From Sphaerochaeta globosa str. Buddy (GTDB taxonomy: Bacteria > Spirochaetota > Spirochaetia > Sphaerochaetales > Sphaerochaetaceae): a stretch of DNA of 64,000 nucleotides. Of this stretch, positions 34,071-47,863 are shown in pieces. A model generated the notes under the pieces. That model ran no database searches, had not been told where the DNA came from, and was given only the letters and a program-made list of their open reading frames with translations. Within the stretch, counting starts at the first letter, position 1. Every line of letters starts with the position of its first letter. The stretch lies in NCBI RefSeq assembly GCF_000190435.1, contig NC_015152.1:2424458-2488457 (forward strand), in the 5' to 3' direction. The position numbers and the translations under genes were made by a program.

Positions 34071-35126
34071 ATGGCGAAACAGAAACGGCTTAGACACTTG
34101 GAAAAACAAGCAGGCAAAGCGAAAAAGAAGGGCAAGCGACTACTTATTCTGCTTGCCATCCTCCTGGTCCTTTGGATCCTCACCCTGATTTTCGCCCCGA
34201 GCGAACAACCCTCCGTTGCGAGTACTTCCACCTATGTCCAAGACCTTGAACTTCCGCTCTATCAAGGGGGAGATCTGGTGGTCAGCCATCCTGGGTACAC
34301 CCTTCTCTATGATGAAGAGCATGAGCAGCCGCGCTGGGTGGCCTACCACCTGAGTCGGGAAGAATTGTACGGCAGCTATGACCGCGGCGATGATTTCAGG
34401 GTCGACCCTTCCATTCTAAGTGGATCGGCAACATTGGACGATTACCGAGGCAGCGGTTACGACCGCGGCCACCTCATTCCTGCCGCCGACCTAAGCTGGT
34501 CAGAAGAGGCGATGAGCGGTTCCTTCTACCTCAGCAACATGAGTCCGCAGGTCGGGGACTTCAACCGCGGAATCTGGAGCAAGCTTGAAGCAACCGTGCG
34601 CAATTTTGCCGATACCGAGGGAGCTGTGTATGTAGTCACCGGACCGGTGCTTACCGACGGGCCCTACAAGACCATCGGCAAAAACAAGGTTTCGATCCCC
34701 AATGCCTATTACAAGGTAGTTCTGGATTATCAGCAGCCTGAATACAAAGCCATTGGATTCGTACTTCCCAATGAAGGCTCAAAGAAGGATCTTGAGAAGT
34801 TTGCACTCAGCATCGATGAGGTGGAGGAGCTTACGGGCATCGACTTCTTTCATCGACTCAAGGATGCCGAGGAAGCAAAACTGGAAGAGTCGGTCGATGC
34901 CACGCTGTGGGACTTCTCACAATTCAGCGCTAGCGCAAAGGACCGTGAAGCTTTCCAGGCCGGCAACCTTCCCGCAAAGGCGCACGAAAAGCCTACAGGA
35001 ATCTACGCTTTTGCAAAGGGCACCCTGTCTACAATCCTGTATGTGGTAAAGCATGAAACAGTAAACATCATTGAGCTTTTCATTCCAAAAACCACACTCA
35101 AGGAAGTCGTTCCCTTCCTTTACTGA
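34071..35126 (+). CDS. Membrane-anchored DNA/RNA non-specific endonuclease
   Basis: 351 aa. A very basic N-terminus (residues 1-22) is followed by one membrane helix (about 23-42), so the catalytic domain should lie outside the inner membrane. The beta-beta-alpha-Me nuclease motif 'GSGYDRGHLIPAADLSW' (DRGH, about residues 130-134) and the Mg-binding Asn in 'SNMSPQVGDFNRGIWSKLE' identify the NucA/Serratia family. A C-terminal extension of about 80 residues follows the nuclease. Ribosome site AGGAGAGG. Converges with the GH31 gene; the two coding ends overlap by 7 bases. Confidence 0.92.
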   Translation: MAKQKRLRHLEKQAGKAKKKGKRLLILLAILLVLWILTLIFAPSEQPSVASTSTYVQDLELPLYQGGDLVVSHPGYTLLYDEEHEQPRWVAYHLSREELYGSYDRGDDFRVDPSILSGSATLDDYRGSGYDRGHLIPAADLSWSEEAMSGSFYLSNMSPQVGDFNRGIWSKLEATVRNFADTEGAVYVVTGPVLTDGPYKTIGKNKVSIPNAYYKVVLDYQQPEYKAIGFVLPNEGSKKDLEKFALSIDEVEELTGIDFFHRLKDAEEAKLEESVDATLWDFSQFSASAKDREAFQAGNLPAKAHEKPTGIYAFAKGTLSTILYVVKHETVNIIELFIPKTTLKEVVPFLY

Positions 35127-37126
35127 AGCGAGGCGAACAGGGAGGCAAAGTCGCTCTCTTTTCGGTAGAAGACTGCAGGGCAAAGCAGCGGCGCGTCAAT
35201 ACAATGTGTTCCACCTTGGTACTCAACCTTGGTAAACAAGTGCACCCAAACATCATCAGGAAGGGTAACTACAACCGAATTGCTGCCCTCTTCCAAAACA
35301 GGGGCGACCAGCAAATCGCGTCCCAATAGATAGGAATCCTTCACACCGAAGAACCGTTCTTGTTCATAATGTAGAAAAAGAGGTCGTATCACCGGTCTTC
35401 CCTGCTGTGCGTTCTGTGCTACCAGATGCATGAGATAGGGCTTGAGATAGACGTGAATATCGGTCATCCGTTTGATTGCCGCAATCGTCTCCTGGTCGCT
35501 GTCAAACTGCCAGTTATCCTTGGGTCGGTTACCTTCATGGGTACGCATCAGAGCTGTGAAGGCTGCCTGCTCGGCCCACCTGATCAACAATTCCTTGCTG
35601 CGCTTCATGCCATACAGGGTGGTGTATCCTCCGATATCACTGTGATGCAGCCCCATGCCGCTCATGGCAAGAGAGAGGGCCGAGGTTATAACCGAAGGCA
35701 GACCGTCGTCCTCGGACCAATCCACATTCTGGTCCCCCGCCCACATCATCTGGCACGAAGCGAGGCTTTGCTGAGAACCTGCACGCATGAAAAACAGGAT
35801 TTCATCGCTTTTCCCGCTTTCCTGGATGGCATCCTTGTTGACCTTGGCCCAATAGCCGGGCCAGGCATTATGCTCAAGCATTGCCGGTCGCTGGTTTGCA
35901 AGCACAACATCGGTAGGCAGGTACTCACCAAAGTCAGCCATCCAACCACAAAGGCCGAACCCTATAAGCTCATCTGTAATGACACGCTTATACCAAGCAA
36001 CTGCTTCTGCCTTGGTGAAGTCGACAATGGCGGCATCGAATTCACCAAAATCAACGAGATATACCGAGCCGTCACAGCGCTTGCCCAACAAATCCAGTCG
36101 CAACGCTTCTTCGTACAGCGGATGGTCGGCAAGCACATACGGGTTGATGTACCCCAACACCCGCACTCCCTGCTGCTTGAGACGAACTATCTCGGTATCA
36201 AGGCCTGGATACAGCTCGTCATCCCACTGCCAATTCCATCTCAGGCGCTTACCGAAGCTGGTGTACCTCTCCCCTTCCCAATCCTGAATCCACAATCCGG
36301 CAACCTTGACACAAGAGCTTTGCATCACCTCAAGTTTCTTAAGGCATGTGCTTGTTCCGCCTTGCATACCCAGAATAATACCGTCATAGACCCAGGGGGG
36401 CAGTATCTGCTGTCTGCCAAGCAACAAGGATATGTCTTGTACCACCTCCAGCAGGCTCGGTTTGACTGAGAGTGTCAGCGTGGCGGGAACATCCCAGAAC
36501 TCAAGCTGATGGCAAGTCGGAAGGGAGAAATCGAAATTTGCGTAGCCGTAGGTGTCAGCATGCACGAAATAGCGCCGGCTGGAGACAAAGGTCGGCTGGG
36601 GATAGAATGTGGTATGGTAATCACCACCGGCGCGATCGAGTCGGTCGGCGATCTGGGTGATTTCGGTCTGCTTGTTTCTGCCGACACCTTGTTCCTGAGT
36701 CCAGAGCGGGAAGTTTTTCCCTCTGAGATTGAAGTGGGAGAACTGCTCCCCACAACCCCACACGTACTCATCCTCGGTGGCAAACAGCCGAAGAACCAAG
36801 CGGTTGTAAGGCTTCGGCAGGGAAGAGAAACACAGATGGAGTCTTCCTTCCCGTTCACTCAACTCGATAGAAAATGCTAGGCCTTGAGCAGAAAAGGTAA
36901 GTGTGGAAACACCCCTTCCTTCACTGTACGATTCGCTTAGCAGGTAGGAGCCAAGACTCAGAGTAGAGAGTGTTTCATCCTCGATGAAATAGTTGCCCCG
37001 ATACATGTCTACCGATTCCTTGCCCTCCTTGAGTGTAACCAAGGGGCAGATTTCACTATGCTCGAGAATTTTGAGTTGGTTGTAGAAAACGGAGAGCTTT
37101 CCATTCTGTTTTGAGAAGCTGATCAT
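35120..37126 (-). CDS. yihQ: Sulfoquinovosidase (GH31, YihQ-like)
   Basis: 668-aa glycoside hydrolase that should free sulfoquinovose (SQ) from sulfoquinovosyl glycerol. Catalytic nucleophile D398 ('GWMADFGEYLP') and acid/base D465 ('WAGDQN') correspond to D405 and D472 of E. coli YihQ. The sulfonate-binding residues Q281, R294, W297 and Y501 correspond to Q288, R301, W304 and Y508; all six are shifted by exactly seven residues, leaving no indel among them. 'WTQEQGVGRNK' is another SQase segment. No signal peptide, so it acts in the cytoplasm on imported substrate. Last gene of the operon isomerase-binding protein-permeases-SQase; it starts 2 bases after the permease stop with AAGGGG upstream. 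Confidence 0.93.
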   Translation of the reverse strand: MISFSKQNGKLSVFYNQLKILEHSEICPLVTLKEGKESVDMYRGNYFIEDETLSTLSLGSYLLSESYSEGRGVSTLTFSAQGLAFSIELSEREGRLHLCFSSLPKPYNRLVLRLFATEDEYVWGCGEQFSHFNLRGKNFPLWTQEQGVGRNKQTEITQIADRLDRAGGDYHTTFYPQPTFVSSRRYFVHADTYGYANFDFSLPTCHQLEFWDVPATLTLSVKPSLLEVVQDISLLLGRQQILPPWVYDGIILGMQGGTSTCLKKLEVMQSSCVKVAGLWIQDWEGERYTSFGKRLRWNWQWDDELYPGLDTEIVRLKQQGVRVLGYINPYVLADHPLYEEALRLDLLGKRCDGSVYLVDFGEFDAAIVDFTKAEAVAWYKRVITDELIGFGLCGWMADFGEYLPTDVVLANQRPAMLEHNAWPGYWAKVNKDAIQESGKSDEILFFMRAGSQQSLASCQMMWAGDQNVDWSEDDGLPSVITSALSLAMSGMGLHHSDIGGYTTLYGMKRSKELLIRWAEQAAFTALMRTHEGNRPKDNWQFDSDQETIAAIKRMTDIHVYLKPYLMHLVAQNAQQGRPVIRPLFLHYEQERFFGVKDSYLLGRDLLVAPVLEEGSNSVVVTLPDDVWVHLFTKVEYQGGTHCIDAPLLCPAVFYRKESDFASLFASLQ

Positions 37127-37128
37127 GC

Positions 37129-37971
37129 CTACCCCTTCACGCCACCGGCGGTCAGTCCGCCAATGATCTTGTCATGGAGAAATACATAGCCGACGATGCT
37201 GGGAATAATGGTAATGATGACAGCCGCGTACATGCTTGCATAGTCGGTGATGAACTGGCTGGTGAAGAACTTGATGCCCAGCTGAATGGTCCTCGACTCA
37301 ATGGAGGAGGTTAAAAGCATGGCCATCAGGAACTCATTCCAGCTGTAGATGAAGCAAAAGGTTGCCGCAGTGACCAAGCCTGAACGCGAAAGCGGGAGAA
37401 TGATAACCGAGAACCGTTTGAAGAAGCCGCAACCATCGATGACGCTCGCCTCTTCCAACTCACGGGGGATGGATTTCATGAAAGCGGTGACCAAGAATAT
37501 GGAAACCGGAATGTTAACTGCTGTATACACAAGCACGAGCGCAAACAGGGTGTTGTACAGCCCGCTCTTGGTGATGAAGGAGAAGTAGGGAACCATGAAG
37601 GAGATAACCGGCACCAAAACACCTGCGGTAAGAATGGTATACAGGACATCCCGGCCTTTGAAGCGCTCCCTGGAAAGTATGAATGAGCCCATTGCAGTGA
37701 CAATGCTGTTGAGAATGACGCTGCTTGCAGCCACCACCACCGAGTTGAGCAGGAGCCTGGGAAGGCTTGCCATGGCAAGGGCTTTGGTGTAGTTGACCCA
37801 CTGCATCCGATCCGGCCACCCGAAGGGATTGGTCTGCAGTTCCAGATTGGTTCTGAGTGAACTGACAAGAAGCCAAATGAGGGGCAGCAAAGCGACGGCC
37901 AACAGGGAAATCAGCAAGACCCACTTGAAAAGGTTGAGGACAATCTGGGCCGGTGTATAATGGCGTTTCAT
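37129..37971 (-). CDS. ABC transporter permease, MalG type (sulfoquinovoside importer)
   Basis: 280-aa inner-membrane subunit of a CUT1 importer with six helices. The EAA loop 'ELEEASVIDGCGFFKRFSVIILPLSRSGLVT' (about residues 177-207) that docks the ATPase is intact. Short N-terminus and C-terminal 'GLTAGGVKG' are typical for MalG-like subunits. It follows the MalF-type gene by 9 bases (GGAGAGG ribosome site). Substrate is inferred from the downstream sulfoquinovosidase. Confidence 0.9.
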   Translation of the reverse strand: MKRHYTPAQIVLNLFKWVLLISLLAVALLPLIWLLVSSLRTNLELQTNPFGWPDRMQWVNYTKALAMASLPRLLLNSVVVAASSVILNSIVTAMGSFILSRERFKGRDVLYTILTAGVLVPVISFMVPYFSFITKSGLYNTLFALVLVYTAVNIPVSIFLVTAFMKSIPRELEEASVIDGCGFFKRFSVIILPLSRSGLVTAATFCFIYSWNEFLMAMLLTSSIESRTIQLGIKFFTSQFITDYASMYAAVIITIIPSIVGYVFLHDKIIGGLTAGGVKG

Positions 37972-37980
37972 CTTCCTCTC

Positions 37981-38874
37981 CTATTGTGCCATCTCGCTCA
38001 TGGGGTCGGAGGACCCGAAGAGCTTGCGTAAAACGGTGATAACCACCGTTCCCATAATAATCAGGAACACTCCTGCCGTACTTGCTTCGCTGTACCGCAA
38101 GGCGTCCATTTTCAGATAGAGGTCGATGCCCATGGTGGTAGTGGCATAGGCAGGCCCGCCTCCGGTCATGAGAAACGTCGATTCAAAGTGACGCATGCCA
38201 TAGGCCATGGCCAGCGTCATGGTGGTAATCAAGCTTCCGCGCAACATGGGAAGGGTAATGTTAAACTCCTGCTGAAAGGTGTTTGCACCATCAATTTCAG
38301 CAGCCTCGTACAGGGATCGGGGAATGTTCATCGCCGAAGCGAGCAGGATGATCATAAAATAGCCGATGTAGATGACAGTCTGGAAAATGACTGCAAAGAG
38401 GGCGGTATCGGGATTACCGAGCCAGTTCCTCTTTTCTGCTCCGAATAGGGCGCCGAGAATGACATTCAAGGGTCCTTCCACATTGTAGATTGCAACCCAA
38501 ACCATCGCCAAGGCAACCGTGGAGATAACGTTGGGCAAGTAATAAATGGTTCGTAGCGAGCGCCAGAAGAGGGGCTTGCGCACCAGTATCATGGCAACCA
38601 GACAGGCTAAGGGAACCTGGATGAAACCTTGGCAAAGAGCCCAGATGACATTGTTTCCCAAGGCTTTGCGAAAAGTAGGATCGCCAAGGAGCTTGCTATA
38701 GTTAGCCAACCCATTGAATTTCATCGACCCGATTCCTCTCCAACTGGTAAAACTGGTGTAGAGGGTAAAACAGAAAGGATAGATGAAAAAGAAGAAGAAC
38801 AGGACTGTGACCGGAAGTAAAAACAGAACTCTTGCTCCCCAGACCCGCCTTCGGTTTGTGCCAACAGCTTGCAT
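37981..38874 (-). CDS. ABC transporter permease, MalF/UgpA type (sulfoquinovoside importer)
   Basis: 297 aa, six helices. The EAA loop 'SLYEAAEIDGANTFQQEFNITLPMLRGSLITT' (about residues 190-220) is complete, and 'FFFIYPFCFTLYTSFTSWRGIG' is the usual first helix and periplasmic loop. Forms the channel with the next gene product. No MalK-type ATPase is encoded in the cluster, so a shared ATPase elsewhere must power it. Confidence 0.9.
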   Translation of the reverse strand: MQAVGTNRRRVWGARVLFLLPVTVLFFFFFIYPFCFTLYTSFTSWRGIGSMKFNGLANYSKLLGDPTFRKALGNNVIWALCQGFIQVPLACLVAMILVRKPLFWRSLRTIYYLPNVISTVALAMVWVAIYNVEGPLNVILGALFGAEKRNWLGNPDTALFAVIFQTVIYIGYFMIILLASAMNIPRSLYEAAEIDGANTFQQEFNITLPMLRGSLITTMTLAMAYGMRHFESTFLMTGGGPAYATTTMGIDLYLKMDALRYSEASTAGVFLIIMGTVVITVLRKLFGSSDPMSEMAQ

Positions 38875-38939: not shown

Positions 38940-40205
38940 TTAGCGTTCGATCTTGCGATCGATCAGGGCGCAGAACTCTTCTGCAGTAATGCGACCCAGG
39001 GCAAGAGCCCCAAGCTGCTGGGCAAACTCGAGGGTTACTTCAGCACCAAGAGCTGCTTCAAGATCGAAGGCAGTGGTTTTGGCAGCAGAAGCTACATCGT
39101 AGAACTGCTTCTGCAGGTCCTTGACCGGGCGATACCCTGTCTTGAGGGCAAACATGGCTCCGCTGGTCTCAGCAATCTTGGAGATTGAGGGCTCACTGGT
39201 CAGGAACTTGAGGAAGTCGACAATGGCTGCCTCGCGTGCCTTGTCCTTGCTGGCTGCGGCACAAATGTTGGCCTGCAGGCGGCTGATCATGAAGTCTTTG
39301 GTTGAACCGGCAGCGGGAAGGCCTGCAATTTTGATGGAACTGAAGAACGGGGTGGCAGCCAAGTCTGCGCGACCTGCATACCAAGGACCGTTGGAGAATA
39401 CTGCAGTGCGTCCTGCAAGGAAGTGCCCACCGCTTCCACCGGCTCCAAGTCCCACTGCATCGCTGGTGGAGTACTCGGTGATGACACGCTTGGTCAGCTT
39501 GGCAGCCTCGACGAAGGCAGCATCGGTGAAAGGTTTGTCCCATACATTGGTTCCACCCAACGAGACGGCAAAGTGGCTGAACCATATCATGCTCGTCCAT
39601 GCATTGGTATCGCCGGTCATCTGGCTGGCCGGGGTGATACCTGCGGCTTTCAGCATATCAAAGGCGGCAAACATCCCTTCAAGGGTAGTCGGAAGCTCGG
39701 TGACACCGGCTTTCTTGAAAGCATCCATGTTGTACCAGATGGGAAGAATGGCGGTTTCCATCGGCAGGGACTTGAGCATGCCGTCAACGGTTGACTGCTC
39801 GATCGAGCCTGCATCGAAGGTCTGTTTCCAGGTAGTGTCCATCACCTTAGCAAAATCCATGAGCAGGTTGCTCTGATAAAAGGTGGCTGTGGTCGGATTG
39901 AACTTAATCGTAAAAATGTCGGCAGGTGCCTGACCGGCAGCCAAGCTGGTTCGCACTTTCTGCTCGTACGCATTGTAGTCCGGTTGCGGTTCAATGACGA
40001 CTTTGACCTTGCCGGCATTCTTTGCATTGTACTCTGCCACCAAAGCTTCTACGGCCGGGGCTTTGCTGTCGTTTCCGACCCAAATGCTTGCCCAACGCAG
40101 TTCGATCTCCTTTGCGGGAGCACTCTCAACCTGTCCCTGAGCAACAAGCGGGAAGAGCAGGCAGAGCATCAGCAGAGCCGCGAGTAATCTCGATTTTTTC
40201 ATCAT
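38940..40205 (-). CDS. Extracellular solute-binding protein, family 1 (sulfoquinovoside importer)
   Basis: 421-aa CUT1-type binding protein. The signal peptide covers about residues 1-23 ('LLFPLVAQ' at its end) without a lipobox cysteine at the cleavage site. Mature features: 'IELRWASIWVGND', 'VEALVAEYNAKNAGKVKVVIEPQPDYN', 'PADIFTIKFNPTTATF' and 'FLAGRTAVFSNGPWYAG' are standard cluster-B folds. Two adjacent ATGs are possible; 40205 is nearer the ideal distance from AGGAG. In Agrobacterium the SQ-glycerol-binding protein SmoF belongs to the same broad family, but ligand residues cannot be compared here. Confidence 0.9.
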   Translation of the reverse strand: MMKKSRLLAALLMLCLLFPLVAQGQVESAPAKEIELRWASIWVGNDSKAPAVEALVAEYNAKNAGKVKVVIEPQPDYNAYEQKVRTSLAAGQAPADIFTIKFNPTTATFYQSNLLMDFAKVMDTTWKQTFDAGSIEQSTVDGMLKSLPMETAILPIWYNMDAFKKAGVTELPTTLEGMFAAFDMLKAAGITPASQMTGDTNAWTSMIWFSHFAVSLGGTNVWDKPFTDAAFVEAAKLTKRVITEYSTSDAVGLGAGGSGGHFLAGRTAVFSNGPWYAGRADLAATPFFSSIKIAGLPAAGSTKDFMISRLQANICAAASKDKAREAAIVDFLKFLTSEPSISKIAETSGAMFALKTGYRPVKDLQKQFYDVASAAKTTAFDLEAALGAEVTLEFAQQLGALALGRITAEEFCALIDRKIER

Positions 40206-40282: not shown

Positions 40283-41599
40283 CTACTGAATTACCTTCCA
40301 CCCTTTAATGCGGGCGACCAACTCCAGAGCTCTGATGTAGGTGCCGTAGACCACCGATGAGTGATGGGCAAGCCCGTTGTCCAAAACAAGGTTCAACACT
40401 TCCCGAACAGGCCGGTCGAAGACAACTTTCATGTACGTGCCCTTAAGCAGCTTCTCCATGGGTATGGCTTTTGCCTTTTGCAGGAACATCCGATACCCGC
40501 CCCTGGCTGAGTCAAGACGGAGAACCGAGAGCTCCCCACTCTTGAGCACAAAGTCGGCAGTGACTCCCTTGCCGCCGGCAAAGTAGGTGTCCAGGCTTCG
40601 GTTGCAGACTCCATCCCACAGGTTGCAGGGGGCTACCCCACAGTGCCAGAAGAGAGCGAAGTCCTGCTCGAAATCCACTTGGGAAAAGTCAAAAAGGAAA
40701 GGAGTCTGTGCTCCCAAAGCCTTATGAGCAATCATCGACAGGGCTCCATCGATATCCCCTTCACACGCAAGGATGAGACCTTCTGATTGCAGCAACGACA
40801 TCGCCGCACAGGGGGAAACCCCGAAATCCCGGGCAAACTCGGGCCAACAGCGGATAGCCAAGGCCGAAAGATTGTTTGCTTGGTAAAAAGCATCGAGTTT
40901 GGCAGCCAAGGAGGATACCTTCTCAATTTGAAATACTGAGAGCGTAGAGACATCAAAGGTCGCCCTGATATGCTCTTCTCGCGCTTTGACCGCTTCATCA
41001 GGGACGGCATAGGAGTAGACATCGCCCAGCTCATAATGATCGACCAAGGCTCCGGTCTGTCCATACAACAAGTTGTCCTGCACCCCGACATTGAAAAAAC
41101 CGTCGGCACGGTAGCCTATGATGCCGATTTTCGCACCCTTCATCGCCTTGATGACCCTGAGGGCATCGATCCAGTCTTCGTCCACCGAGTCCTGGATGAT
41201 CACCGTATAATCGTCATAGCCGCTCTTATAGAGGTTTGAGGCATTGAGGTTAACCCCGCATACCGAGTTGAGTCTGATTTTTCCCCCGTTGTACGGCAGT
41301 TCCGGCAGCCCCCACAAAAGAACCGGAACGGAAAGCTCGCGTTTGAGCATCAATACCAAATGGCCAAGATGGAATGTGCCGGAAATACAGATCAAACCAT
41401 CCACGTGCTCGGTGGCAAGGTTGGCTGCTGCCGCCAGCCCATCCTCCTGGCTGATCACCAAGGTCTCAATGAAACACCAATCAACCGCTTCAATCTTCTG
41501 TAAATCCGAGCGAATTTTGGTATAGAGCTCCTCTGCCGCACCATAGTCATAGGTCTTCCTTGCAAGGCACACTACTGCAAGCTTCACGGTATGTTTCAC
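40283..41599 (-). CDS. Fucose/arabinose-isomerase-like protein, candidate sulfoquinovose isomerase
   Basis: 438 aa, GTG start with AAGGAG 6 bases upstream. The overall form is that of the L-fucose/L-arabinose isomerase-like group (COG2407): N-terminal Rossmann-like domain ('KLAVVCLARKTYDYG', 'DGLICISGTFHLGHLV', 'SVPVLLWGLPE'), then 'KGAKIGIIGYRADGFFN', 'LSALAIRCWPEFARDFGVSPCAAMSLL', 'ACEGDIDGALSMIAHKAL' and 'ALFWHCGVAPCNL', which holds Glu and His residues positioned as metal ligands. As first gene of the importer/SQase operon and with a transketolase pair divergent from it, the best role is SQ to 6-deoxy-6-sulfofructose. I recall such an enzyme named SqvD in described clusters but am not certain of the name. 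Confidence 0.75.
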   Translation of the reverse strand: MKHTVKLAVVCLARKTYDYGAAEELYTKIRSDLQKIEAVDWCFIETLVISQEDGLAAAANLATEHVDGLICISGTFHLGHLVLMLKRELSVPVLLWGLPELPYNGGKIRLNSVCGVNLNASNLYKSGYDDYTVIIQDSVDEDWIDALRVIKAMKGAKIGIIGYRADGFFNVGVQDNLLYGQTGALVDHYELGDVYSYAVPDEAVKAREEHIRATFDVSTLSVFQIEKVSSLAAKLDAFYQANNLSALAIRCWPEFARDFGVSPCAAMSLLQSEGLILACEGDIDGALSMIAHKALGAQTPFLFDFSQVDFEQDFALFWHCGVAPCNLWDGVCNRSLDTYFAGGKGVTADFVLKSGELSVLRLDSARGGYRMFLQKAKAIPMEKLLKGTYMKVVFDRPVREVLNLVLDNGLAHHSSVVYGTYIRALELVARIKGWKVIQ

Positions 41600-41712: not shown

Positions 41713-42876
41713 TTACCGGAAGTACTCCTGCAGCACCAAATCGCTTGCTCCCTTTTGGGCAAGCAGAGGATCATAGGCGGTTGCAAATATTTGCGGTGTT
41801 TCCGAGCAGAAGGCATCAGGCTCGGACAACAGGTGTTCAACCTGCTCACGCAATGCCTGGGCTACTGCATCACAACACCCTACAAAAAGATAGGATTTTG
41901 GTGCAAGCAACCGAGTAAGTATTTTCATGGCGATGACCAGATACCCTGCGGCCCGTTCGATGGTCCGCTTGGCTGAGACATCACCGCTTCGCAGCCTCTC
42001 TTCCAAGCCTTCGAACAAGGCCAGACGCGATTCGACTGAATCAGGGTCGAGGTCCTGCAGATATGCCTGCAGGCATCCTCTGCTGCCGCAGCTGCATCGC
42101 GGCCCGTCGCTGTCGATCGGAATATGGCCAGTCTCAATCGTTTGGTTCTGGCTGTTTACATAAATCTCATCATCATGCACGAAGGCTCCATTGACGCCGG
42201 TCCTGAGCAGGAAGGTGAACATGCTTCCCTGGTGGTCGAAACCTCCATAGCGGTACTCGCTGAAGGCAAGGGCGCTGCAATTGTTATGAATCATAACGGC
42301 AAGCCCGAGACGTCCCGACAACTCTTCGACCAAGGCAATATCCTTCATGCCCTCGATTCGGGGATAATAGCGCACCCGTTTTTGTGCAAGATCGACCTGG
42401 CCCGGAGCGGCCACCCCCACCCCGATGACTTTCTGCTTGGGTATCGAGAGTTCTGAGAGAATTCGGTTGATTTCACTGACAATGAGGTCGATGACCTGGC
42501 TTGCTTCAACCGACTCAGCGAGGGGGTGCATAACCGAGTAGATACGCTCACCCTGAAAGTCGAAGACTCCCAGGCACAGAAATGCAGTCCAGAATTCAAG
42601 GCCTATGGTATAGCGGGCATTCTTTGAAACCACATACAGTACCGGTCTTCTTCCCTTTTTCGCCACGGCTTCTTCGTAATTGCCTTGTGCAGGGAGTATC
42701 AGGCCTTCCTCTTCAAGGGAGGAGAATATACGAAAAATGGTCGGGGCTTTCAGTCCGGTCTTCTGCACCACTTCCGACTGACTGGTTCCCAAGTTCTTGG
42801 AAGCATGGATGAGAGCGAGTACCATGTTCTGGTTATGGACCCGCAAATCTGATGCTCTCAGTGGATTTCCTTGCAT
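41713..42876 (-). CDS. ROK-family transcription regulator (NagC/XylR type), probable SQ-pathway repressor
   Basis: 387 aa. Winged helix-turn-helix at residues about 14-62 ('TSQSEVVQKTGLKAPTIFRIFSSLEEEGLI'), then a ROK sugar-binding domain with zinc site 'CSCGSRGC' (Cys261, 263, 268) and His251 in 'ETGHIPI'. Where ROK kinases have 'END', this protein has 'HNN' (around residue 198), so the catalytic Asp is missing and it should be a pure regulator. It lies between the two SQ operons, and each has a TTACTT-N5-AAGTAA palindrome at its promoter. Its start at 42876 has GGAGG upstream. Confidence 0.88.
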   Translation of the reverse strand: MQGNPLRASDLRVHNQNMVLALIHASKNLGTSQSEVVQKTGLKAPTIFRIFSSLEEEGLILPAQGNYEEAVAKKGRRPVLYVVSKNARYTIGLEFWTAFLCLGVFDFQGERIYSVMHPLAESVEASQVIDLIVSEINRILSELSIPKQKVIGVGVAAPGQVDLAQKRVRYYPRIEGMKDIALVEELSGRLGLAVMIHNNCSALAFSEYRYGGFDHQGSMFTFLLRTGVNGAFVHDDEIYVNSQNQTIETGHIPIDSDGPRCSCGSRGCLQAYLQDLDPDSVESRLALFEGLEERLRSGDVSAKRTIERAAGYLVIAMKILTRLLAPKSYLFVGCCDAVAQALREQVEHLLSEPDAFCSETPQIFATAYDPLLAQKGASDLVLQEYFR

Positions 42877-43001: not shown

Positions 43002-43823
43002 ATGCTCACCTCGCAAGAACTGCAGCATCTATCGGATTTTGCCAAGGAAATACGCAAGAAAACCCTGTATACCATTGGAAATCTCGGTGTGGGGCACATC
43101 GGGGGTGCCCTTTCAATCGCCGAATTACTAGCATTGCTCTACGCAAAGGTGATGCGCATCGATCCCTCCAATCCTGGATGGAAAGACCGAGACCTCCTGG
43201 TATTGTCCAAAGGACATGCAGGCCCGGCCCTGTACGCCACACTGGCTCTCAAGGGCTACTTCCCCCTTTCCGAATTGGACACCCTCAACCAAGGGGGAAC
43301 CAACCTGCCCAGCCACTGCGACCGGACAAAGACGGTGGGAATCGACATGACTACCGGCTCGCTTGGGCAAGGTTTATCGGCAGCCTGCGGTCTTGCCTAT
43401 GCCAATCGCATAGACAAAAAAGATGCCTACGTCTATGCAGTCATCGGGGATGGGGAGAGCCAGGAAGGCCAGAACTGGGAGGCTGCAATGTTTGCTTCTC
43501 ATTACAAACTTTCCCACCTCATAGCGTTTACCGACAATAATAAAATGCAAATCGACGGCCTTACCGACGACATTATGAGCCTGGGGGACCTTGAACTGAA
43601 ATGGAAAAGCTTTGGATGGTACACCCAACGTGTCGATGGTCACAACCTTGAGGCCATGGAAACAGCCATCGAGCAGGCAAAGAACCAGAAAAATCTGCCC
43701 TCAATGATTATTCTTGACACAATAAAGGGCAAGGGAGCCTCCTTCTGCGAGAACAAGGTGACCAACCATAATATGAATTTCGACCTGCAAATCGCCAATC
43801 AGGCAATTGCTGAGCTGGGATAA
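43002..43823 (+). CDS. sqwG: Transketolase N-terminal subunit, candidate sulfofructose transketolase
   Basis: 273 aa, the thiamine-diphosphate-binding half of a split transketolase. 'GHIGGALSIAELLALLY', 'DLLVLSKGHAGPALYATLALKG' and the TPP/Mg motif 'GDGESQEGQNWEAAMFASHYKLSHLIAFTDNN' (GDG at 149-151, closing Asn near 180) are intact. With the next gene it should move C2 units from 6-deoxy-6-sulfofructose, then from 4-deoxy-4-sulfoerythrulose, to glyceraldehyde-3-phosphate. The role comes from gene context; the fold alone cannot separate it from ordinary split transketolases. Gene name from memory of the described SqwGH pair; which half bears G or H is uncertain. Confidence 0.85.
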   Translation: MLTSQELQHLSDFAKEIRKKTLYTIGNLGVGHIGGALSIAELLALLYAKVMRIDPSNPGWKDRDLLVLSKGHAGPALYATLALKGYFPLSELDTLNQGGTNLPSHCDRTKTVGIDMTTGSLGQGLSAACGLAYANRIDKKDAYVYAVIGDGESQEGQNWEAAMFASHYKLSHLIAFTDNNKMQIDGLTDDIMSLGDLELKWKSFGWYTQRVDGHNLEAMETAIEQAKNQKNLPSMIILDTIKGKGASFCENKVTNHNMNFDLQIANQAIAELG

Positions 43824-43833
43824 GGAGGATCAG

Positions 43834-44778
43834 ATGGAAACCAAAGAGATGCGAGCAGTATATTGCGACACCCTTATCGAGCTGGCTCAGTCGGATGAAA
43901 GGATCATGGTAGTCGAGGCCGATTTAATGCGGGCCAGCGGGACCATGTCCTTCAAGCAACAATTCCCCGACCGGGGGGTGGATGTCGGTGTCGCCGAAGC
44001 CAACCTGGTTGGAGTGAGTGCAGGCCTGAGTGCTGCAGGCAAGATACCGTTTGCAGCAACCTTCGGATGCTTCGCCTCAAGACGGGCTTTCGACCAGTTC
44101 TTCCTTTCGGCAAACTATGCAAAGCTGAATGTGAAATTGGTAGGCACCGATCCCGGTATCAGCGCAGCCTTCAACGGGGGAACCCACATGCCCTTTGAGG
44201 ATATCGGTCTGATGCGCATGATCCCGGGCCTCACCATTGTAGAGCCATCGGATCCGGTCAGCCTCAAGGCACTGCTGAAGGCCTGTGCATCCCATCAGGG
44301 TTGCACGTATATGCGCCTGCATCGCAAGGCGGTAGCACCAATCTATCAGAACGATGAAATGTTCGCATTGGGAAAGGGCAAGGTGCTTTGCGACGGTAGC
44401 GATGTCACCCTTATCGCCTTAGGAGCAATCCTGGTCCCTGAAGCGCTCAAGGCCAAGGATGAGCTGGCAAATATGGGCATCGAAGCTGCTGTTCTTGACA
44501 TGCATACCGTCAAACCCCTGGACGAGGAACTCGTTCTCTCCTATGCAAGGAAAACCGGTTGCATCGTCACCGCCGAGAACCATCAAACGGCGGGAGGCTT
44601 GGGAGCCGCTGTCGCAAACTTCCTAGCCAAAACCCACCCCACACCGATGGCAATGGTGGGTATTCAGGATGAGTTTGGCCAAGTAGGCACCCAAGGCTGG
44701 CTGCAACAGTATTATCATCTCACTGCAGAAGAAATTACGCGCAAGGCTCTTGCACTGGTCAAGAGCAAGAAGGAGTAA
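43834..44778 (+). CDS. sqwH: Transketolase C-terminal subunit, candidate sulfofructose transketolase
   Basis: 314 aa, the pyrimidine-binding half plus the C-terminal domain. ATG 43834 follows AAGGAGG, 10 bases after the N-subunit stop; an earlier in-frame start would overlap it. 'IMVVEADLMRASGTMSF' (cofactor-activating Glu region), 'VGVAEANLVGVSAGLSAAGKIPFAATFGCFASRRAFDQ', 'THMPFEDIGLMRMIPGLTIVEPSDP' and 'TAENHQTAGGLGAAVANFL' follow the split-transketolase pattern. It overlaps nothing but is followed by the RpiB-like gene after 3 bases. Confidence 0.85.
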   Translation: METKEMRAVYCDTLIELAQSDERIMVVEADLMRASGTMSFKQQFPDRGVDVGVAEANLVGVSAGLSAAGKIPFAATFGCFASRRAFDQFFLSANYAKLNVKLVGTDPGISAAFNGGTHMPFEDIGLMRMIPGLTIVEPSDPVSLKALLKACASHQGCTYMRLHRKAVAPIYQNDEMFALGKGKVLCDGSDVTLIALGAILVPEALKAKDELANMGIEAAVLDMHTVKPLDEELVLSYARKTGCIVTAENHQTAGGLGAAVANFLAKTHPTPMAMVGIQDEFGQVGTQGWLQQYYHLTAEEITRKALALVKSKKE

Positions 44779-44781
44779 CGT

Positions 44782-45252
44782 ATGACCATAGCAATTGCAA
44801 GCGATCTCAGTGGATTTCCCCTCAAGAAGGAACTGGTCGAGCATTTGAAAGAGAGTGGCTACACCGTCCTCGATTTCGGTATTGAAAACGAGAAAGAACC
44901 CCAGCCGTACTTCATTCAGGCCCCCAAAGTAGCCAAGGCCATCCAGCAAGGCAAAGCAGAAAAGGGAATTCTGATTTGTGGCACCGGGCAGGGAATGGCT
45001 ATTGTTGCAAACAAGCACAAAGGCATCTATGCCTGCGTGGTGGATGATATTTTCAGTGCAGAGCGATCCAAGATTGTGAACAATGCAAACGTCATCACCC
45101 TTGGCGGATGGATTACGGCACCGTTTGTCGGCAAGCAGATTGTCGATGCTTGGCTTGCTATGAGTTTTACCCAAAAAATGGAATTCAAGAAAGACTTTTT
45201 GACGAATGCCTTCGCCCAAGTACAAGCCATCGAAGAGGAGAACCTCAAATGA
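44782..45252 (+). CDS. sqwI: RpiB/LacAB-type isomerase with altered active site, candidate 4-deoxy-4-sulfoerythrose isomerase
   Basis: 156 aa. The RpiB fold is clear: 'IAIASDLSGFPLKKELVEHL' and 'KGILICGTGQGMAIVANKHKGI', with the catalytic base Cys66 at the same number as in E. coli RpiB. Residues that RpiB uses for ring opening and phosphate binding are changed: His10 to Leu9, His99 ('RQHND') to Val99 ('KIVNN'), and the C-terminal Arg pair is replaced. The proposed substrate is a four-carbon aldose without a free 4-OH, so it cannot form a ring and carries no phosphate, which explains these losses. AAGGAG precedes the ATG. It overlaps the next gene by 4 bases. Confidence 0.83.
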   Translation: MTIAIASDLSGFPLKKELVEHLKESGYTVLDFGIENEKEPQPYFIQAPKVAKAIQQGKAEKGILICGTGQGMAIVANKHKGIYACVVDDIFSAERSKIVNNANVITLGGWITAPFVGKQIVDAWLAMSFTQKMEFKKDFLTNAFAQVQAIEEENLK

Positions 45253-46418
45253 TGGAAAGCTTGCTCAGTGCGGTACCTATACTCAGTTTTACAGAACTGA
45301 ATGGCTCATCGCTTGCGCAACTGTTACGCTTTGCCTCGAAGAATGAAGCAAAGCTTAGCGTATGTGCCGTCATTGACAATGCTCCTATCCCGTACAAGGA
45401 TTGCTTGCTGAAGGAACTGAGTGAGTATGCAACTGTCCATGTATTTGATCAGGTCCAACCAAATCCCCAAACCGTAGATATCATGAGCATGTACGCCGAT
45501 CCTCGCTTTCTTGGTTGCGATGTTATTGTAGGCATCGGAGGAGGCAGCACCCTCGACTCCGCCAAGGCCCTGGCCATGCTCGCAACCAATGGGGGCGAAC
45601 TGGATGAATACCTTGGGAATCAGAGCAAGCGAAAAATTACCGAGCGCTCACGGACTTTGGTTCTGATACCTACCACCGCCGGCACGGGCTCGGAGGTAAC
45701 CAAGGTAGGTGTCTATACCGATGCTACAGGAAGGAAATACACCCTCGGCTCGCCTTTGATGATGGCACACGCGGCAGTCTTGGTTTCTTGTCTGCTGGAC
45801 AGCGTTCCTCCCTCACTCTGTGCAGCTACAGGCTTGGATGCCTTAGATCATGCCTTGGAGTCGATCTGGAACAAGAATAGTACCGCTCTTACTAAAATAG
45901 TTGCCCGAAATGCTGCCATTGAGATACTCGAAACACTCCCCAAGCTTTACGAGGCTATCAGAACAAACAATCCCAAGAAGCGCTCTCTCACACAGGCGAT
46001 GCTCAAAGCATCCACAAAAGCGGGAATCGCCTTCAACCTGACCGGTACGGCAGCCGGACACGCCATTTCTTTCATCCTCAGTGAAGAGTGGCATGTTCCC
46101 CACGGCCTTGCCTGTGCCTTCACGCTGCTGGAGGTTTTCGATTGGGCCGTGCAGGATGCAACGAACAAGATGGAACTTGCCTTGATCGGCAACCATTTTC
46201 ATCCAACGTTCAGTCAGGAGCAGGCTGTTATGGCTTTAAGAAGCGATATCGCCGCCCTGATGCAGGATCTTGCAATCCCTACACGCTTTTCAGACATCAA
46301 CGTAACACTTTCGGACATCACCGTTTTCGACCGCTGCCTTGACGATCCGAAGCTGCACAACCAGCGCCCGCCTCTTCAAAAAGAGGATCTGTATCGCATG
46401 CTTGAGGCAAAGCGGTGA
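45249..46418 (+). CDS. sqwF: Iron-containing alcohol dehydrogenase, candidate sulfoacetaldehyde reductase
   Basis: 389-aa group III dehydrogenase. The NAD loop 'GIGGGSTLDSAKALA' (GGGST at 97-101) and 'PTTAGTGSEVTKVGV' are present; Fe ligands lie in 'ATGLDALDHALES' (Asp, His), 'GHAISF' and 'HVPHG'. I start it at ATG 45249, overlapping the isomerase stop by 4 bases with GAGGAG upstream. In the operon it should reduce sulfoacetaldehyde to isethionate with NADH, regenerating NAD. Related reductases are known for taurine-fermenting bacteria. No aldehyde dehydrogenase or CoA ligase is next to it, so isethionate rather than sulfoacetate is the expected end product. Confidence 0.85.
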   Translation: MMESLLSAVPILSFTELNGSSLAQLLRFASKNEAKLSVCAVIDNAPIPYKDCLLKELSEYATVHVFDQVQPNPQTVDIMSMYADPRFLGCDVIVGIGGGSTLDSAKALAMLATNGGELDEYLGNQSKRKITERSRTLVLIPTTAGTGSEVTKVGVYTDATGRKYTLGSPLMMAHAAVLVSCLLDSVPPSLCAATGLDALDHALESIWNKNSTALTKIVARNAAIEILETLPKLYEAIRTNNPKKRSLTQAMLKASTKAGIAFNLTGTAAGHAISFILSEEWHVPHGLACAFTLLEVFDWAVQDATNKMELALIGNHFHPTFSQEQAVMALRSDIAALMQDLAIPTRFSDINVTLSDITVFDRCLDDPKLHNQRPPLQKEDLYRMLEAKR

Positions 46419-47158
46419 GCGCCATCCTGGCAAGCGGGGTGGTGGTCCTCATCACCCACGCCCTGGAAGCCGTGACCGGGTTTGGTTGTGCAGTCTTGGC
46501 CATGCCCTTCGTCAGCGCCCTGCTTGGTGTGAAGACGGCCGTGAAGGTCATTACCATCCTTGCATGGCTGTTGGCTTTGTATCTGGCCGTACGCAATTAC
46601 CGAAAGATCAACTTCAAACAGTATGCAATCATCACTGCATGCATGCTAGCCGGCCTTCCAGCGGGTATGTATCTCTTCCGCAGCCAGGATACGACAGCTC
46701 TCTCCTTCATTCTCGCGATATTCATTGTCTTCGTTTCAGTGAGTCAGCTCTACCGACTTTTACGCACGAAGCAAACCGGTAGCATTCCTACCGGAAAAGC
46801 TGCAATACCCTACTATCTCCTGCTTGTCCTGGGAGGCATCGTGCATGGCCTGTTCTCCTCAGGGGGACCCTTGGTGGTATTGTATGCCACCCGCGCCCTC
46901 CCTGATAAGGGATCGTTTCGAGCGACGCTGTGCCTGCTCTGGACAACGCTCAATACCATCATTATCGCTACCTACCTAAGCGAAGGCTCACTCGATCAGA
47001 CTACGCTTACAACAACCGCCCTTCTCATTCCTTTTGTCGTAGTGGGAGTAGTCATCGGTGAACGGGTACACGACAAAGTCGATGGGAGAAAGTTCTCCCT
47101 CATTGTCTTTTCCATGCTATTGTTGACCGGAATCTTCATGTTGGCATTCACGAGGTAA
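46415..47158 (+). CDS. TauE/SafE-family exporter, candidate isethionate exporter
   Basis: 247-aa membrane protein with about eight helices in two halves. The family repeats are visible: 'HALEAVTGFGCAVLAMPFVSALLGVKTAVKVI' in the N-half and 'LVLGGIVHGLFSSGGPLVVLYATRALPDKGSFRATLCLLWT' in the C-half. GTG start overlaps the dehydrogenase stop by 4 bases (GTGA). TauE/SafE proteins export sulfonates or sulfite; here the C2 sulfonate end product is the likely cargo. Confidence 0.87.
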   Translation: MSAILASGVVVLITHALEAVTGFGCAVLAMPFVSALLGVKTAVKVITILAWLLALYLAVRNYRKINFKQYAIITACMLAGLPAGMYLFRSQDTTALSFILAIFIVFVSVSQLYRLLRTKQTGSIPTGKAAIPYYLLLVLGGIVHGLFSSGGPLVVLYATRALPDKGSFRATLCLLWTTLNTIIIATYLSEGSLDQTTLTTTALLIPFVVVGVVIGERVHDKVDGRKFSLIVFSMLLLTGIFMLAFTR

Positions 47159-47161
47159 ATC

Positions 47162-47863
47162 ATGCAATCGAGTTTTTATCACATTCCTTGTGCCCTTATC
47201 AGTGCGAATCCCCATCTCATGATTCATCGCATCGACTCTTCCCGGTTCTCCCAGTATGGAACCTTGCTTCCTTCCCTTTGCGTACAGGAGCTTATTGCAT
47301 CACAAGAAAAGCTGACAACCATTCCAAAAGAGGGGAACATATATGTGGCCTCCCTTGCTGAGCTTGAAGCACTTCCAGAAACAAGGAATATGGAGACCTA
47401 CTTTGCAGGACAACCGATCCAAGTGGGATATTGCAATGGACGCAACACCTCCATCAACGGGGCGGAGTACCACAAAAGCCCCGAGCTGTTTATCGCAGTA
47501 ACCGACTGCCTGCAATTTCTCACGCCTTTCAGCCAACTCAAAGATTTTTCTTCAGTCCATACAAACAGTGCTGAACTCTTTTACTTTCCCAAGGGTTCGG
47601 TTGCCCTTATCAAGGAGAGGGTGTTGCACCTTGCCCCCCTTTGTGTTCACAAGGAGGGTTTCAAGTCCATCATCGTCCTGCCCAAGGGGACCAATGAGCC
47701 GTTGGACAAGGAGCTTCAGAAAGACCCGAGCTGCGAGGAAGACAGACTTTTGTTCAAACAAAACAAATGGATGCTTGCTCACCCGGCTAGAGTCCAACTT
47801 ACTTCCCAGGGGGTCGTGGTGGGACTTGAAGGTGAAAATCTGAGTATCAATCCTTTGGCATAA
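47162..47863 (+). CDS. DUF4867-family protein of unknown function in the sulfoquinovose operon
   Basis: 233 aa. I recognise the DUF4867 pattern: 'FSQYGTLL', 'YFAGQPIQVGYCNGRNTSINGAEYHKSPELFIAVTDCLQFL' (EYHKSPE at 102-108), 'AELFYFPKGSVALIKERVLHLAPLCV' and 'GFKSIIVLPKGTN'. The 'EYHKxxE' stretch and the later 'LHLAP' give His and Glu residues that could bind a metal in a cupin-like barrel. The catalytic role is not known to me. It starts 3 bases after the exporter gene, and DUF4867 proteins are also present, as I recall, in sulfoglycolytic clusters of Bacillus, which points to a sulfosugar-specific job such as mutarotation or isomerisation (inference). Confidence 0.85.
   Translation: MQSSFYHIPCALISANPHLMIHRIDSSRFSQYGTLLPSLCVQELIASQEKLTTIPKEGNIYVASLAELEALPETRNMETYFAGQPIQVGYCNGRNTSINGAEYHKSPELFIAVTDCLQFLTPFSQLKDFSSVHTNSAELFYFPKGSVALIKERVLHLAPLCVHKEGFKSIIVLPKGTNEPLDKELQKDPSCEEDRLLFKQNKWMLAHPARVQLTSQGVVVGLEGENLSINPLA

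Follow-up and report, generated by a model that had tools for sequence, protein, structure and literature searches.

What does the product of 44782-45252 act on, and can its substrate be read from the residues that it has lost? This open reading frame of 156 aa lies on the forward strand of the window, the whole 64,000-nucleotide stretch of Sphaerochaeta globosa DNA analyzed here. A preliminary description took the product for an RpiB-like isomerase whose missing ring-opening and phosphate-binding residues would predict 4-deoxy-4-sulfoerythrose (SE), an acyclic C4 sulfosugar. The family assignment is borne out by the profile search (PF02502 LacAB_rpiB, 6.1e-42) and by a high-confidence AlphaFold model of the monomer (50 sequences, pLDDT 97), which adopts the RpiB/LacAB fold. 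The best PDB match of this model is the RpiB structure 3he8 (Z 26.9) and its best fold matches are all RpiB (Z 24-27), while a search for solved structures turned up none for a close relative.

The surroundings of the gene point to its pathway (Table 1). The window carries a complete sulfo-transketolase (sulfo-TK) set, made up of YihQ, an importer, SqvD, SqwGH, SqwI, SqwF, SqwE and a DUF4867 protein, with no ery operon or DhaKL genes around the isomerase. Such a gene set constitutes the sulfo-TK pathway (PMC12890257, PMC11659671), which has been reported in Spirochaetes and is transcribed in rumen Sphaerochaetaceae during sulfoquinovose (SQ) degradation (PMC13219744). Because the gene sits in this complete cluster, and from its phylogeny, it almost certainly encodes SqwI, whose predicted function is the isomerization of SE during bacterial use of SQ, the sugar of a plant sulfolipid.

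Table 1. Genes of the sulfo-transketolase cluster in the window
Feature	Coordinates	Strand	Evidence and remarks
GH31 YihQ-type sulfoquinovosidase	35120..37126	-	NF007746/PRK10426 2e-267, 889 bits, over cut-off
Two ABC permeases	37129..38874 (37981-38874, 37129-37971)	-	ORFs, sequence character
ABC sugar-binding protein, SQ or SQ-glycerol importer candidate	38940..40205	-	PF01547
SqvD/SftI-like sulfoquinovose isomerase	40283..41599	-	NF048012 1.4e-60, 205 bits, below 700-bit cut-off
ROK-family regulator	41713..42876	-	PF00480
SqwG, N-terminal half of split transketolase	43002..43823	+	PF00456 1e-54; directly upstream of sqwH, sqwI in most related loci
SqwH, C-terminal half of split transketolase	43834..44778	+	PF02779, PF02780; alternative TTG start 43807
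SqwI, predicted SE isomerase, RpiB/LacAB family	44782..45252	+	PF02502, alignments, AlphaFold model, cluster
SqwF, Fe-type alcohol dehydrogenase, sulfoacetaldehyde reductase candidate	45249..46418	+	PF00465/PF25137
SqwE-like TauE/SafE exporter, isethionate export candidate	46415..47158	+	PF01925 2.7e-25
DUF4867 protein	47162..47863	+	PF16161 8e-68

The start of sqwF (45249) overlaps the sqwI stop, and its product matches the NCBIfam SarD sulfoacetaldehyde reductase model at 1.3e-43, below the cut-off. The SqvD-like isomerase also falls far below the threshold of its family model, so the curated SftI model misses this spirochaete version. The DUF4867 protein is named SftX in SQ clusters (PMC13219744). 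A genome-contig scan gave 183 matches, the best 80 of which were taken as related loci; these lie in Spirochaetota, Chloroflexota and Verrucomicrobiota, and none of the matches listed is labelled clostridial. SqwG and/or SqwH stand beside SqwI in nearly all of these best 80, and many of them carry SqvD, SqwF, SqwE or DUF4867 homologues. The permease at 37981-38874 is also present in related clusters. Plasmid and viral sequences yielded no SqwI, the proteins found there being canonical RpiB, LacB or of the C4-phosphate type.

Residue positions were obtained by alignment to E. coli RpiB, in which the equivalent of His10 is Leu9 in window numbering. In the window protein Cys66, Thr68, the CGTGxG loop, Asp8, Tyr43 and Asn100 are conserved, and the changes include His10 to Leu9, His99 to Val99, Arg133 to Met133 and Arg137 to Lys137; the retention of Cys66 and the changes at 99 and 10 are as the preliminary description had given them. 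Its claim that the C-terminal Arg pair is gone stands for Arg133. At 137 the replacement by Lys is conservative, with Lys or Arg in 85 of 92 SqwI sequences. Two further changes had escaped it, namely Arg110 to Trp110 and the canonical Leu/Met95 to Arg95, and Lys136 is present as well. In the monomer model of an active site that spans two subunits, Arg95 and Val99 lie on one helix (residues 90-100). A separate canonical RpiB (L002), 32% identical to SqwI, is encoded in the same genome and retains H10, H99, R133 and R137.

These features hold across 92 distinct SqwI sequences, all of one clade. Position 99 is Val in 50 and Ile in 42 but never His, Arg95 and Trp110 are found in all 92, and His10 and Arg133 are missing from every one. 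Against this, 33 of 37 RpiB-model matches, drawn from spirochaetes and reference sequences, have His99 (Fisher p 1e-26, a value that overstates independence, as the 92 sequences form one clade). The catalytic Cys66, Thr68 and Asn100 and the GTG loop are invariant, and a C-terminal segment, QKMEFKKDF, is conserved. Since Cys66, Thr68 and Asn100 do not vary over the 92 relatives, SqwI is under selection rather than decaying, and the invariant catalytic residues argue for a working enzyme.

A second SqwI-like lineage (L024-L028), 40% identical, lies beside a split transketolase and has Ile/Val99, Lys/Arg95 and Trp110. This second lineage, about 40% identical, is seen at L138, L139 and L142 (same phylum, other families) and at L141, adjoining a split transketolase (52-54% and 40-42% identical). 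Its members carry Thr for Asp9 and Arg for His10. L138 and L139 have an SqvD homologue (54%), and at L138 a sodium:sulfate-type symporter lies just upstream. This lineage is possibly a divergent sulfo-TK variant.

What the losses mean can be judged against enzymes whose C4 substrate carries a phosphate. Ten C4-phosphate isomerases were chosen by context, from ery operons (with EryA-, EryB-, EryC- and EryH-like neighbors, one version being partial), a related C4-acid cluster and DhaKL clusters, together with Brucella 5IFZ. Ser99 and Arg95 are found throughout this set, in which nine lack His10 and none has Arg137, which is Asn or Lys; Arg133 is kept in seven and Arg110 in nine. The four exceptions among the 37 RpiB-model matches (L155, L156, L164, L165) are spirochaete proteins that score over the TIGR01120 cut-off and carry Ser99 and Arg95. 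Because of this pair, and because DhaK/DhaL adjoin three of the four in line with the signature, they are likely to be C4-phosphate isomerases misnamed RpiB. TIGR01120, the standard annotation model, thus passes enzymes of the C4-phosphate type as ribose-5-phosphate isomerase. The erythrulose-4-phosphate isomerase model NF051858 (cut-off 240 bits) was rejected as a marker of EryI, as enzymes in evident C4-phosphate contexts fall below it; the model is narrow, since the DhaKL-type enzymes L180 (165 bits) and L155 (182 bits) also miss its cut-off.

Several observations were made on relatives elsewhere. Salmonella and Klebsiella plasmids (L179, L180) carry an RpiB-type C4 isomerase with DhaKL, an alcohol dehydrogenase and a transaldolase, to which L180 adds a transketolase, and this region is likely to be a tetrulose catabolic island. 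In another spirochaete (L145:7568-11278), an EryI-like isomerase directly precedes a split transketolase and an FGGY kinase, possibly an uncharacterized C4-sugar route. Canonical RpiB genes also occur on viral contigs as large as 244 kb (L188, L208, L209, L195), and the RpiB frame of L195 continues into a nucleotidyltransferase-like domain. Phage-encoded RpiBs keep His10, His99 and Arg133.

In the preliminary description each loss was a direct adaptation to the sulfosugar, that of His99 to an acyclic substrate and those of His10 and the Arg pair to a sulfonate in place of the phosphate. SE cannot cyclize, and His99, His10 and Arg133 are indeed absent from all 92 SqwI. However, phosphate-carrying C4 isomerases also do without His99 (10/10), His10 (9/10) and Arg137 (10/10), and therefore such losses cannot tell a sulfonate from a phosphate. 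A sulfonate moreover still needs cations, and Lys136/137 and Arg95 are present in the window SqwI. This reading is thus unlikely, and its prediction of the sulfonate from the sequence changes is not supported. The link between loss of the ring-opening His and an acyclic C4 substrate fares better, as the C4-phosphate isomerases provide a second example, although an acyclic substrate and one that is a carbon shorter cannot be told apart here. On the sequence comparison, loss of His99 together with Arg95 would mark a C4 substrate that is short and open-chain, irrespective of the anion it carries, and not a sulfonate.

Phylogeny bears on how these losses arose. In a tree built with the trait columns removed, SqwI falls into a single clade with the divergent lineage (99/97), and a grouping of the C4-phosphate enzymes is weakly supported (91/63). 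A first reading of this tree suggested separate origins for SqwI and EryI; no such claim is made here, as a tree joining both C4 groups in a single clade survives the AU test (p 0.589). For the same reason, SqwI may have inherited these residues from a C4-phosphate ancestor, in which case the loss of His99 was not a response to the sulfonate.

The best joint explanation, which we hold to be very probable, is that the gene is the sqwI of a complete sulfo-TK set, that the loss of His99 encodes the C4 substrate, and that the set comprising Trp110 and a hydrophobic residue at 99 may encode the sulfonate. Cys66 would act as the base that shifts the proton between C2 and C1, with the enediolate held by Thr68 and the CGTGxG loop, and by Asp8, Tyr43 and an Asn100 contributed by the neighboring subunit. 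Since SE has no 4-OH and can form no ring, the ring-opening His99 would have no task, hence the Val or Ile in its place. Compared with ribose-5-phosphate the substrate lacks one carbon, and because of this the anion site would move inward; Arg95, which lies one helical turn from 99 and is common to the C4-phosphate isomerases, would take over the anion contact. SqwI differs from the C4-phosphate group at 99 (Val/Ile versus Ser), at 110 (Trp versus mostly Arg) and at 134 (Glu versus Ser), and Met133 and Lys/Arg136 also set it apart. A shift from phosphate in EryI to sulfonate in SqwI would then involve Ser99 to Val/Ile, Arg110 to Trp and Ser134 to Glu, plus Lys136 and Lys137. The glycosidase family GH188 binds sulfonate with Arg and Lys (PMC11465081), and as known sulfonate sites use these residues, a cation is still expected in the site of SqwI. 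We propose from the monomer model, the active site spanning two subunits, that Arg95, Trp110 and Lys136/137 hold the sulfonate. Trp110 is not diagnostic by itself, as an otherwise ordinary RpiB with His99 (L029) has it too. Arg133, for its part, is retained by some EryI.

A substrate code for the whole RpiB family can be put forward more tentatively, as plausible yet still somewhat doubtful. His99 with Leu/Met95 would specify C5/C6 ring sugars, and the absence of His99 with Arg95 an acyclic C4 substrate; among C4 enzymes, Ser99 with Arg110 would indicate phosphate, and Val/Ile99 with Trp110 and Met133-Glu134 sulfonate. Trp110 and Arg95 would then form a sulfonate site unseen in the solved structures of the family. 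SqwI is the least characterized step of the sulfo-transketolase pathway, and this comparison supplies residues for mutant tests: His99 loss and Arg95 as C4 marks, and V/I99, W110, M133-E134 and K136/137 as candidate sulfonate marks. Such predictions are useful because SqwI activity has reportedly never been directly measured.

It is much less probable that the enzyme is an isomerase of erythrose- or erythrulose-4-phosphate that lies or moonlights in a sulfosugar cluster. R95 and the loss of His99 are common to SqwI and EryI, the EryI clade may be sister to SqwI, and NF051858 matches at 3e-32, though with 112 bits the score is far below the cut-off. The gene nonetheless belongs to a full SQ route cluster that is conserved over Spirochaetota, Chloroflexota and Verrucomicrobiota, and SqwI differs from EryI at 99, 110, 133 and 134 with no exceptions. 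That the gene encodes a usual ribose-5-phosphate isomerase B, or is a copy that has decayed or lost its activity, is hardly credible, for although the general RpiB subfamily model NF004051 is passed (137 bits, cut-off 135), the rpiB equivalog TIGR01120 is missed (113 versus 138.65), the genome has its own canonical RpiB, and the catalytic residues are invariant.

Among known systems, the canonical RpiBs of E. coli and C. thermocellum (3HE8) share with SqwI the fold (Z 25-27), the Cys66 base, the GTG loop and Asn100, whereas their His10, His99, Arg110, Arg133 and Arg137 are all changed in SqwI. H99 in RpiB and H96 in LacA are the ring-opening residues, the E. coli H99N variant losing activity about 26-fold, and Arg110 corresponds to the phosphate-binding Arg113 of M. 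tuberculosis (PMC3755991). The D-erythrulose-4-phosphate isomerases (EryI of the Brucella and Rhizobium ery operons, EYI1 of Yarrowia) resemble SqwI in their acyclic C4 substrate, the loss of His99, the gain of Arg95 and the usual loss of His10. Unlike SqwI, they act on a phosphate and have Ser99, Ser134 and mostly Arg110, without a C-terminal extension of the SqwI type. The inference that loss of the His and of phosphate residues means a shorter substrate is not new. It was drawn in 2011 from structures of the RpiB of the fungus Coccidioides immitis, in which the ring-opening His is Ser109 (position 99), Arg105 (position 95) replaces Leu/Met and supports the phosphate, and the phosphate site is reduced to Ser109, Ser145 and Lys148, and its authors suspected a shorter substrate (PMC3212906). 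This protein has a fungal and a Brucella relative, EYI1 and EryI, both with roles in C4 erythritol metabolism (PMC5992420). This C. immitis protein (3QD5/3SDW) is like SqwI in its fold (Z 24), replaced ring-opening His, Arg at 95 and lost phosphate residues, but it has a Ser/Lys phosphate site and no reported Trp110. The archetype of SqwI in the sulfo-TK pathway is that of Clostridium sp. MSTE9 (Liu et al., 2021; reviewed in PMC9594981, PMC12890257). Its discoverers' review notes that spontaneous isomerization of SE to SEu hampered direct measurement and calls for further characterization (PMC9594981). The function is thus assigned by context. The protein of the window shares with the MSTE9 archetype the PF02502 family and the neighbors, SqwG-SqwH-SqwI with SqwF, SqwE and SqvD, and is a further representative of this already known enzyme type.
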